Assembly (NCBI GenBank): GCA_016871445.1
Contig: VHDH01000024.1
Coordinates: forward strand, 1-35,876
Length of the DNA: 35,876 nucleotides
Direction: 5' to 3'
From: Verrucomicrobiota bacterium
Lineage (GTDB): Bacteria > Verrucomicrobiota > Verrucomicrobiia > Limisphaerales > SXTU01
The translations under genes were made by a program, and so were the position numbers. Numbering within the stretch: position 1 is the first letter of the stretch; every line of letters starts with the position of its first letter. The notes beneath the pieces were generated by a model that made no database searches, had not been told where the DNA came from, and was given only the letters and a program-made list of their open reading frames with translations. Of this stretch, positions 32,365-35,185 are shown piece by piece.

Positions 32365-32469
32365 ATGGGCAGACAATCCAATAAAGTGCAGAAACGTCGG
32401 CGTCGTAAGGCTTACCTCAAACGCAAGAAGGTCGCGGTAAAGACCAAAGCAGCGGGTAAGAAGTCGTAA
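32365..32469 (+). CDS. Small basic protein, 34 residues
   Basis: An ATG-to-TAA frame coding a 34-residue chain with more than half of residues basic. Key parts are MGRQSNKVQKRRRRKAY, LKRKKVAV and a Lys-rich tail ending GKKS. A purine-rich AAAGAAG sits a few bases before the ATG. An excellent intrinsic terminator begins about 20 bp after the stop, which argues for a real, separately ended transcript. The composition suggests binding to RNA, probably ribosome-associated like other tiny basic ribosomal proteins. I do not recognise a named family with certainty. Its position just upstream of the large structured RNA is notable. Confidence 0.7.
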   Translation: MGRQSNKVQKRRRRKAYLKRKKVAVKTKAAGKKS

Positions 32470-32488
32470 GTGCGACCCGCCGACCCCA

Positions 32489-32514
32489 AACCGCCCGAAG
32501 TCGGGCGGTTTTTC
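32489..32514 (+). terminator. Intrinsic terminator of the small basic protein gene
   Basis: AACCGCCCGA pairs with TCGGGCGGTT (up to 10 bp, 2-base centre, realistically an 8-bp stem with a 6-base loop), followed immediately by TTTCTTTA. It is the strongest classical terminator in the window. Confidence 0.85.
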
Positions 32515-32546
32515 TTTATCCGTACCGAATTTCTCGGCGCGGCTTG

Positions 32547-32576
32547 TTCACAAAAGTCTTTCCCAAACAGTTTAAT
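32547..32576 (+). promoter_or_regulatory. Candidate promoter P1 upstream of the structured RNA
   Basis: TTCACA and TTTAAT are separated by 18 bp, just past the terminator of the small gene. A transcript from here would begin near 32583 and include the overlapping hairpins at 32603-32634. Judged by eye against the housekeeping-sigma consensus. Confidence 0.35.
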
Positions 32577-32602
32577 ACGTGTGCATAGTTTGTTAAGCTG
32601 CG

Positions 32603-32634
32603 CGGGAAAAGCCCGTAAAACCGGGTCTTTATTT
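32603..32634 (+). promoter_or_regulatory. Mutually exclusive hairpins followed by a T-rich run
   Basis: CGGG (32603-32606), CCCG (32612-32615) and CGGG (32622-32625) can form two alternative stems sharing the middle CCCG. The second stem is followed by TCTTTATTTT. This has the layout of a small anti-terminator/terminator switch. The stems are only 4 bp, so it may be chance. Confidence 0.3.
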
Positions 32635-32689
32635 TAGTTTCACAGTTTTTTGCGCAATAAACTGCGGTGAACAAGGTGTGCATATGAAA

Positions 32690-32719
32690 TTGTAGTGGGA
32701 TTGGAAAACTGTGTTAAAG
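32690..32719 (+). promoter_or_regulatory. Candidate promoter P2 of the structured RNA
   Basis: TTGTAG and TTAAAG are separated by 18 bp, with a TGTG extension just before the -10. Transcription would start around 32727, just before the first hairpins. A 9-bp inverted repeat (CACAGTTTT at 32641, AAAACTGTG at 32705) has one arm inside this spacer and could be an operator. Confidence 0.4.
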
Positions 32720-32729
32720 TCATCCCAGT

Positions 32730-33597
32730 TCATTGAAAGAACCGAAGCAGACACGGCGGACGAAAGAATGCCGGAGAAGTTTCGAGGATAATCCCAGGTG
32801 ACTGGGGAAAGGCCGGGACAGGCTGGTTGGCTCGGCCCCTCTGAATGTGCGCCGCAAGGCGTGCGCGAAGAGGCAGAATTCACCAGCTCCTCTGGCGGGC
32901 GTCGCGGCCCGTCACACGCGATCGAGGAGCTTGGCGGCGAGGGGCGATTAGAAACCGCTCCGAGTCGATTCAAGTAACGCCGGCTGGTTTCGGGCCGGTG
33001 TGAATCGCGGTTACCCAGAGGGTATCCGGTTGCTACCGTGAATCAGCACGGGGCGGGCAGCTCTGGCGGTTGTTGTAAGACGGCCGTTAGTCAAAGCCAC
33101 CGAAAGGTGGACAAAACAAGTTCCCGCACCGGGAAGGACATGCGGCCTCGGCAAGGCCCATGAAAACCTTCCGCAACGTCGGCGATGTTACAAACGGCAC
33201 CGCTGGCCTGTGAGCCAAACGCAACCTGAGAGTCAAGAGGCGAGACCCGTGGCACGGGGCAAACGCACTGCCAAAAGCGGTGGCTGTCCCTGCGCTAAGT
33301 GGTTAAGACGCGGACCGTACACACAGTCGTGTCTTGACCTGGTTCGTGGGCCGGTGGCGCAACCATCAGCCCAAGCGAGCTGAAAAGCCTCACTCGAATT
33401 CCAGTCGCCGCAAGGTGCTGGACGGCCCTGCTGCGAGGCCGAAAACTCCGCTTGCCGTGGAGAACAGCGTCGGGAAGCCGGCAGCCCCGCGAGGGCGCGC
33501 CTAATGCCGGTCCGGGAAAGAGAGCGTGGCGCACTCCCATCCCCCGTTTTGCCCCCGTCGGGCCGCAAGGTCTGGCGGGGGCATTCCGTTTTTAGCA
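32730..33597 (+). ncRNA. Large highly structured putative RNA, about 0.87 kb, class not recognised
   Basis: No credible protein lies here. Plus-strand hairpins follow one another. Examples: CCCAG-GTGA-CTGGG (32793), GTGCGCC-GCAA-GGCGTGC (32847) inside CCTCT/AGAGG, AGCTCCT/AGGAGCT (32885/32925), CGATTCA/TGAATCG (32966/33001), CCACC-GAAA-GGTGG (33097), GGTTAAGAC/GTCTTGACC (33301/33331), GCT-GAAA-AGC (33379), a 9-bp GCAA hairpin with one bulge (33400-33422), CCGGCA/TGCCGG (33478/33505). At least six loops are GNRA, and they read as GNRA only on the plus strand, which sets the orientation. The CRI block of RNase P RNA (GAGGAAAGUCC), a tmRNA tRNA-like end and a group II domain V are absent. It could be a stand-alone RNA or a giant leader of the propeller gene downstream. 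Ends are estimates. Confidence 0.6.
33550..33593 (+). terminator. 14-bp GCAA-capped stem with downstream T run
   Basis: GCCCCCGTCGGGCC pairs completely (with three or four G-T pairs) with GGTCTGGCGGGGGC around a GCAA loop at 33565-33568. ATTCCG and then TTTTT follow at 33589-33593. The six-base gap before the T run is longer than ideal, so it may be the last domain of the RNA as well as its terminator. Confidence 0.65.
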
Positions 33598-33766
33598 CCT
33601 GACCATCCCGCCGCGTCTTTTCGCCAACGATGGCAAGCGCTCGGGAACCTGGTTCTGGCAAATGGACTTCGAAGAGTTGCGTCCCAATAAGCTCCGCTGG
33701 CAAATGTCACACAAGAACGCACTCGCCGTGGGAAGTGGCGGCGACCATGCTCGTCCAAGAATGTCC

Positions 33767-35185
33767 ATGAAACTTATCGCGCTGCTAGTCCTGCTGCTGT
33801 CCGCTGTTGCCGCTCGGAGTGCTGGCGTGGTGGAAGACTGGCCGCATTTTCTCGGGCCGCGGGGCGATAACACTTCGCGCGAGACGGGTTTGCTCGACAA
33901 GTTTCCGAAGGACGGCCCGCCCGTGATTTGGCAGCGGGACATCGGCACGGGCTACAGCGCGCCGTCAGTGCGAGGGGATTTGCTGGTGCTGCATCAACGC
34001 GTCAAAGACGAGGAGGTCGTCGAGGCGATGCACCCGGCCACGGGGAATTCCGTTTGGCGGTACGCTTATCCGAGCCGCTATCAAGACCCGTTCGGCTACA
34101 ACAACGGCCCGCGTTGCTCGCCGTTGCTGACCACGAACCGGTGTTTCACCTTCGGTGCGGAGGGCAAGCTGCTTTGCCTTGAGCTCGCCACCGGCAAGCT
34201 CGTGTGGCAGCGCGATACGGCGCGGGACTTCAACGTGCCGGAGGCGTTTTTTGGCGTCGGCTCCACGCCGATACTCGAAGGCGACAAACTCATCGCGATG
34301 GTTGGCGGGCAGCCCAATGCAGGGATGGTGGCCTTTGACGCGGCGACTGGGAAGACGCTCTGGCAGAGCGTGGGCAAAGCCAACTGGGAGGGCGTCACCA
34401 CGCTGGGCTGGAGAGCTGAGCGGCCCTATGAGTGGACGGGACAGGAGAAACTCGCGAGCTATGCATCACCGGTGGCCGCGACGATCCATGGGCGGCGGCA
34501 CATTTTCTGCCTAATGCGGCAAGGCTTGGTCTCTGTGAATCCGACTAATGGCGCGGTGAACTTTACTCGTTGGTTTCAGTCTTTCGCCAATGACTCGGTC
34601 AACGCGATGAATCCTGTGGTGCAGGATGACCTCGTACTGATTTCCGCCGCTTACTACCGGAGCGGCGCGGTGCTGCTGCGCGTGAAGCCGGACGGCAAAT
34701 CGTACGACGAAGTGTGGCGTGACCCGCGCCGACACCCGATGGACATGGATGATCGCGATCCGGCGACGGGCCGGTGGAGGGTGCCCGCGCTTGAATTGCA
34801 CTGGAACACGCCCATCCTGCTGGACGGCCATCTCTACGCGTTCAGTGGGCGCGATGAGCCAGACGCGACGTTTCGTTGCGTGGAGTTCAAGACTGGCAAG
34901 TTGACTTGGAGCCGCGATGAGCGGGCGCAGAAACATCCGCCGCACGGCACGCAACTTCCCGTTTACGGGCGCGGTGCGGCCATTCTTGCGGACAGTAAGC
35001 TTTATGTGCTTGGTGAGTTTGGTTTGTTGGGGATTTTCAGGCCCAACCCTAAGCAGCCGGAGGAACTCGCGCGCTGGCAGGTCCCGATGCTCGGCTATCC
35101 GAGTTGGACAGGGCCGGTGCTGTCACGCGGGCGGCTTTACCTGCGCAGTGAGGACAAGCTGGTCTGCTTCAATTTAGCGAAATAG
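33767..35185 (+). CDS. Secreted PQQ-binding-like beta-propeller repeat protein (BamB-like fold)
   Basis: 472 residues from ATG 33767 (ATG 33761 is two codons earlier). Signal peptide KLIALLVLLLSAVAARSAG. The mature start DWPHFLGPRGDNTSRETGLL is the typical opening of the planctomycete/verrucomicrobial PQQ-like propeller family. Blade repeats are visible as ATGNSVWRYAYPS, ATGKLVWQRDTAR, ATGKTLWQSVGKANWEG and KTGKLTWSRDE. The fold needs no PQQ; members are thought to be periplasmic binding or scaffold proteins. It lies 174 bp after the terminator-like stem of the large RNA, so part of its leader is separate from it. Function unknown. Confidence 0.85.
   Translation: MKLIALLVLLLSAVAARSAGVVEDWPHFLGPRGDNTSRETGLLDKFPKDGPPVIWQRDIGTGYSAPSVRGDLLVLHQRVKDEEVVEAMHPATGNSVWRYAYPSRYQDPFGYNNGPRCSPLLTTNRCFTFGAEGKLLCLELATGKLVWQRDTARDFNVPEAFFGVGSTPILEGDKLIAMVGGQPNAGMVAFDAATGKTLWQSVGKANWEGVTTLGWRAERPYEWTGQEKLASYASPVAATIHGRRHIFCLMRQGLVSVNPTNGAVNFTRWFQSFANDSVNAMNPVVQDDLVLISAAYYRSGAVLLRVKPDGKSYDEVWRDPRRHPMDMDDRDPATGRWRVPALELHWNTPILLDGHLYAFSGRDEPDATFRCVEFKTGKLTWSRDERAQKHPPHGTQLPVYGRGAAILADSKLYVLGEFGLLGIFRPNPKQPEELARWQVPMLGYPSWTGPVLSRGRLYLRSEDKLVCFNLAK

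Follow-up and report, generated by a model that had tools for sequence, protein, structure and literature searches.

A full-length MISL RNA locus in a Verrucomicrobiota genome, with clustered DnaA-box-like sites just before its putative promoter

Among the large ornate bacterial RNAs are OLE, GOLLD and ROOL, for which cryo-EM structures are available (PMC12286853). These RNAs share with the MISL family (Rfam RF03079) a similar size class, many hairpins and long-range contacts, a comparison that concerns only how such molecules work, and like MISL they are mostly without an assigned function. The original MISL paper reportedly appeared in Nucleic Acids Research in 2017, and in the literature that we searched the term "MISL RNA" was found only in the Ribonanza chemical-mapping work. 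A second point of comparison is regulatory, and is provided by promoters under the control of the replication initiator DnaA, of which dnaA autoregulation is an example. Here we describe a MISL locus in a window of 35,876 nucleotides (the whole stretch of DNA that was analysed) from a Verrucomicrobiota bacterium (GenBank assembly GCA_016871445.1, contig VHDH01000024.1, positions 1 to 35,876 of the forward strand) and compare it with both kinds of system.

A preliminary description of this DNA had proposed that a gene-free stretch of about 0.87 kb represents a new class of structured RNA, and had said that a significant Rfam match to a known class would speak against it. Scanning the window with the full set of Rfam families gave just such a match, with 591.9 bits (E = 1.8e-179) to RF03079 against a curated cut-off of 274.6 bits, and the claim of novelty is thus wrong:

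32786..33537, plus strand: MISL RNA as modelled by Rfam RF03079 (model positions 1-751), from the covariance-model score and counted pairs

The match is complete, covering all 751 model positions, RF03079 is the sole Rfam family that matches the window, and a permissive scan of 32500-33770 returned no other Rfam family even at E up to 1. From this sequence comparison it is close to certain that the gene-free stretch belongs to MISL, which it resembles in its full-length match, its strand and its single copy in the source genome. It differs from the Rfam model in that the conserved element is here ~58 nt longer upstream and ~58 nt longer downstream, and in six helices that are absent from the model structure line, some of which the Rfam seed may already have. 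The earlier placing of the element in the range of OLE, GOLLD and ROOL is apt for size and form as an analogy, but the region has no sequence or structure match to these families at E up to 1, and in contrast to them MISL here is a resident chromosomal gene.

What had been said of the general nature of the element, a large, multi-helix, GNRA-containing, stand-alone structured RNA, is by comparison strongly supported. The segment 32728-33595 folds on the plus strand to -409.8 kcal/mol with a z-score of -5.5 (0/20 shuffles as good) versus -1.5 for the reverse strand, which together with the covariation of its pairs in relatives confirms a long and strand-specific structure, and the plus-strand open reading frames within it are short (up to 59 aa) and mutually overlapping; the stretch is gene-free, as had been noted. 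Its originally proposed borders, 32730-33597, were also right and are better than those of Rfam, given the following features at the two ends:

32712..32720, plus strand: extended -10-like element TG-T-TAAAGT (TG-N-TAnnnT in 28/42 loci of the lineage)
32728..32742, plus strand: hairpin GTTC-N7-GAAC at the 5' end, conserved but not covered by the Rfam model, with 97.6% pairing across 73 relatives
32743..32784, plus strand: 5' domain with closing helix P0 (32743-32747/32780-32784), outside the Rfam model, with double-sided changes in 5/5 pairs
33551..33595, plus strand: intrinsic terminator from the terminator scan, with a 14-bp stem (33551-33564/33569-33582), a GCAA loop (33565-33568) and a T run

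In the 73 relatives the conserved element starts with the hairpin formed by GTTC (32728-32731) and GAAC (32739-32742), which is nearly invariant, hence shows little covariation, and is kept in nearly all loci. At the other end the strong closing stem with its T run was correctly recognized, and 13 of the 14 pairs of this GNRA-capped stem show double-sided changes in the same relatives. The MISL promoter hexamers are weak, and a strict sigma-70 scan called no plus-strand promoter, 32712-32720 included; the start of transcription would lie at ~32727. Because of the conserved 5' hairpin, the terminator and the TG-N-TAnnnT motif that precedes the hairpin, we suggest that the RNA probably spans ~32727 to 33595, or ~60 nt beyond the Rfam model on each side.

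Covariation in homologues had been proposed as a check on the structure, and it is present. Using an alignment of 73 diverse relatives that was made from sequence only, and thus structure-free, we ranked column pairs by mutual information with background correction, and found that 18 of the 20 top pairs, and 35 of the top 50, belong to the Rfam structure or the end hairpins. These 187 Rfam and end-hairpin pairs are 87.9% paired versus 37-42% when slid, double-sided changes occur in 138 of them, and 0/500 shuffles reach the score. Beyond the model structure line we observe six helices, P0 (above) and the five that follow, four of which (PKa to PKd) are pseudoknots:

32902..32921, plus strand: PKa, 32902-32906 with 32917-32921 (TCGCG/CGCGA), 99.2% paired, double-sided changes in 3/5 pairs
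33028..33226, plus strand: PKb, long-range, 33028-33033 with 33221-33226 (GGTTGC/GCAACC), 99.5% paired, double-sided changes in 4/6 pairs
33179..33206, plus strand: outer helix, 33179-33184 with 33201-33206, 89.9% paired, double-sided changes in 4/6 pairs
33208..33326, plus strand: PKc, 33208-33212 with hairpin loop 33322-33326 (CTGTG/CACAG), 96.4% paired, double-sided changes in 3/5 pairs
33430..33468, plus strand: PKd, hairpin loop 33430-33433 with 33465-33468 (GCTG/CAGC), 100% paired, double-sided changes in 3/4 pairs

The 31 pairs of the added helices are 95.5% paired versus 31-42% when slid, with double-sided changes in 22 pairs (359 cells), these counts coming from the alignment on which the helices were also found and being inflated by relatedness. 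Structure lines from cmscan omit pseudoknots, and therefore some of PKa to PKd may already be drawn in the Rfam seed or the original paper. When the added helices were rechecked in 14 members outside the alignment, five of them distant, PKd and PKc held nearly everywhere and PKa and PKb were full or nearly so in most, with some mismatches, while P0 was poorly kept in distant members, where the alignment is uncertain. Taken together, the alignment shows, at the level of predicted pairing, nested helices and four pseudoknots. As for the six GNRA caps described previously, those at 32798 (GNRA in 73/73 relatives) and 33410 (72/73) are essentially invariant, the terminator loop at 33565 has GNRA in 51/73, those at 32854 (30/73) and 33102 (38/73) belong to lineage-specific hairpins, and the GAAA at 33382 is junction sequence and not a hairpin loop.

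Directly upstream of the putative promoter we found a cluster of sites that resemble DnaA boxes and that is conserved at this position in relatives:

32666..32674, minus strand: DnaA-box-like 9-mer GGTGAACAA (reverse strand TTGTTCACC)
32677..32685, minus strand: DnaA-box-like 9-mer TGTGCATAT (reverse strand ATATGCACA), with one mismatch to TTATNCACA

The paired element GGTGAAYAANNTGTGSATA (one mismatch allowed) occurs once in the source genome, and in 5/9 genomes it is present and there only at MISL. Across loci, the density of exact TTATNCACA is 2.45 per kb over the 150 bp that precede the RNA and 0.022 per kb elsewhere in the loci; the 47 exact boxes contrast with 0.8 on average, and 20 at most, for 100 permuted patterns. 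At least one box (one mismatch allowed) lies in the 200 bp before the hairpin in 100/108 loci, with none there in the other 8, and by eye the distant loci L048 and L049 have no box; three control stretches of the same loci carry 0.00-0.04 boxes per locus. In the 108 loci the boxes lie nearly all at -200 to -41, at preferred positions and in consistent orientation, with two to five per locus and mostly two or three. The most frequent octamers before MISL are TTATTCAC (84/115) and TTGTTCAC (57/115). The commonest is TTATTCACC and not the classical TTATNCACA, and the next base is more often C than the A found in the classical box; the second site is often a perfect TTATNCACA. The octamers TTATTCAC/TTGTTCAC recur before dnaA in the same genomes, that of the window among them, at ~55 and ~340 bp, with fixed distances in 9/9 loci that have enough upstream sequence. 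These two DnaA-box-like sites were seen before dnaA in loci L172-L174 and L176-L181 of these Verrucomicrobiota (one seen in L172), a pattern that fits dnaA autoregulation. MISL thus resembles DnaA-controlled promoters in the two or three DnaA-box-like 9-mers that stand immediately before the -35 region and in sharing its octamers with dnaA, and differs in that the product is a large noncoding RNA whose regulation by DnaA is putative. A location of MISL at the replication origin was rejected, as the distance between MISL and dnaA is 0.16-2.2 Mb in six complete genomes.

We propose, with a probability of roughly 0.6, that the MISL gene is a unit of ~870 nt, timed by DnaA, whose product is a compact RNA that acts in trans. 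In this proposal the single-copy unit would have a promoter of its own and stop at an intrinsic terminator that likewise belongs to it, DnaA would bind the upstream sites and so time or adjust MISL synthesis with replication or growth state, and the transcript would fold compactly, locked by tertiary contacts, and act in trans as an accessory RNA or as an RNP, not as a leader for the next gene. That MISL is a DnaA-controlled large RNA coupled to replication or growth, with a heavily pseudoknotted and tertiary-locked core, we put forward more tentatively, at somewhat less than even odds. If true, this would be a kind of bacterial RNA with its synthesis tied to the initiator of chromosome replication. 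The family is already catalogued, and the DnaA-box cluster upstream of it is new to us; it could serve as a testable regulatory handle for MISL, the first that could be found, and the defined ends together with the extra pseudoknots offer a full-length construct for MISL structure work.

Control of the MISL promoter by DnaA is the simplest reading of the cluster, and a rather likely one, but two other accounts of the same sites deserve attention. The preference for C where the classical box has A might instead reflect another regulator that favours TTATTCACC-like sites, with DnaA uninvolved, an idea that we consider unlikely although still worth bearing in mind, because the same octamers recur at fixed distances before dnaA in all nine loci and the second site is often a perfect classical box. 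It is more doubtful still that the cluster serves mainly as a site of DnaA titration or recycling, like datA or DARS, with the adjoining RNA independent or incidental: the two to five boxes per locus and their distance from dnaA in complete genomes would suit such a role, but the boxes hold a fixed spacing to the RNA start and come no closer than ~-41, as for a promoter regulator, and the RNA itself is under strong selection.

Alternatives to a trans-acting RNA concern its surroundings and its kinship, and for the first of these the neighbouring genes are informative:

32365..32469, plus strand: small basic protein gene (34 aa), the upstream neighbour and not part of the RNA, from the open reading frame and terminator scan
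33662..35185, plus strand: PQQ/BamB-like beta-propeller gene (start codon uncertain), downstream, without conserved linkage to MISL

The small basic protein gene has its own terminator stem (32488-32511), its product has no Pfam or NCBIfam match, and homologues occupy the same place in 10 loci and are kept also where MISL is lost. In Limisphaerales-type genomes a divergent lipoprotein gene precedes MISL, as does the small basic protein gene in the genus of the window and some others, and cysK lies downstream in 18 loci; in Opitutales MISL stands between a divergent hrpB and typA. A fixed partner gene was rejected, no neighbour being common to both orders. A giant riboswitch or attenuator, that is, a cis-acting leader controlling the same-strand gene downstream, might be suspected from the next gene in the window, which is on the same strand, and from the many loci in which typA or cysK follows on that strand. 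We hold this to be very improbable, as the element ends in a conserved intrinsic terminator, the gene that follows it varies from order to order, and neither typA nor cysK adjoins it in the window; since the flanks change while RNA, promoter and terminator stay, a leader for any one gene is disfavoured. MISL is very likely a stand-alone unit with its own predicted promoter and terminator. Size and multi-helix form alone would also agree with a divergent housekeeping RNA such as RNase P, tmRNA or 6S, to which we give almost no credence and which was rejected: all three are encoded as separate genes elsewhere in the same genome with scores above their cut-offs, the RNase P RNA being on another contig with no RNase P model match at 32500-33770, and RF03079 alone matches the region at E up to 1.

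Indirect evidence on the transcription of MISL comes from viral contigs. Three IMG/VR contigs, L169 (1-806), L170 (1-480) and L182 (1-315), carry part of MISL in sense joined, at different breakpoints, to the 5' end of three different ssRNA-phage (Leviviricetes) genomes with a maturation protein; L169 contains a replicase (PF03431, E = 3e-42) and a full-length MISL match of 543 bits. The same arrangement is seen in L190 (IMG/VR, 15111 nt), in which positions 1-165 are a MISL 5' fragment joined to a tail-sheath-like ORF of a dsDNA phage. A pattern for the 3' end of MISL picked out L169 and two long viral contigs besides. For comparison, 56 viral contigs with RNase P showed no levivirus in a weak test by tblastn with few query proteins. 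Such joins arise when reverse transcriptase, on reaching the 5' end of one RNA, continues on another that is abundant. It is always the 5' part of MISL that stands in sense at the 5' end of the contig, with varying breakpoints, which agrees with template switching onto an abundant RNA, and carriage of MISL by RNA phages was rejected; the contigs are probably chimeras that report an abundant MISL transcript and not phage genes, although some joins may have arisen by recombination in vivo. Since RNA is the sole material from which ssRNA-phage genomes can be assembled, MISL RNA would have been there too, and the contigs thus point indirectly to transcription of MISL.

MISL was found in at least 45/97 relatives of the same order and in at least 24/289 genomes sampled across the phylum, two of these MISL carriers lying outside the class, both counts being lower bounds as few candidates were scored per genome, and a 20-base core pattern was found in at least 118 stretches of named genomes. 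Six genomes of the same genus that lack a MISL match still have both the lipoprotein gene and, with its terminator, the small basic protein gene, and in none of the six does an intact MISL come after the latter. At the syntenic site in one of them, G010 (L253), there remains a degraded stretch from the 3' part of MISL (blastn E = 4e-17 to the L012 copy), which nhmmer with default filters missed and blastn found, while in G051 (L258) stretches like the promoter/box region (E ~1e-4) and the terminator stem (~1e-5) are left and the RNA body is missing. Incompleteness of the genomes was rejected as the cause of absence, the syntenic site being present and empty. Judged from these sites, MISL is a resident gene with more than one loss behind it. 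Having disappeared repeatedly from the same site, it must be dispensable to some species, and close relatives in which the loss is clean provide natural knock-outs for comparison. Among the matches listed, every record whose title gives a group gives Verrucomicrobiota, apart from a single MAG under the name Proteobacteria, and the family may also occur outside Verrucomicrobiota. The titles of two MAG records with MISL, Proteobacteria (L159) and Akkermansia muciniphila (L141), look wrong or doubtful. Almost all other genomes have one MISL, and G251 has two different copies, C5 and C33 (502 and 405 bits).
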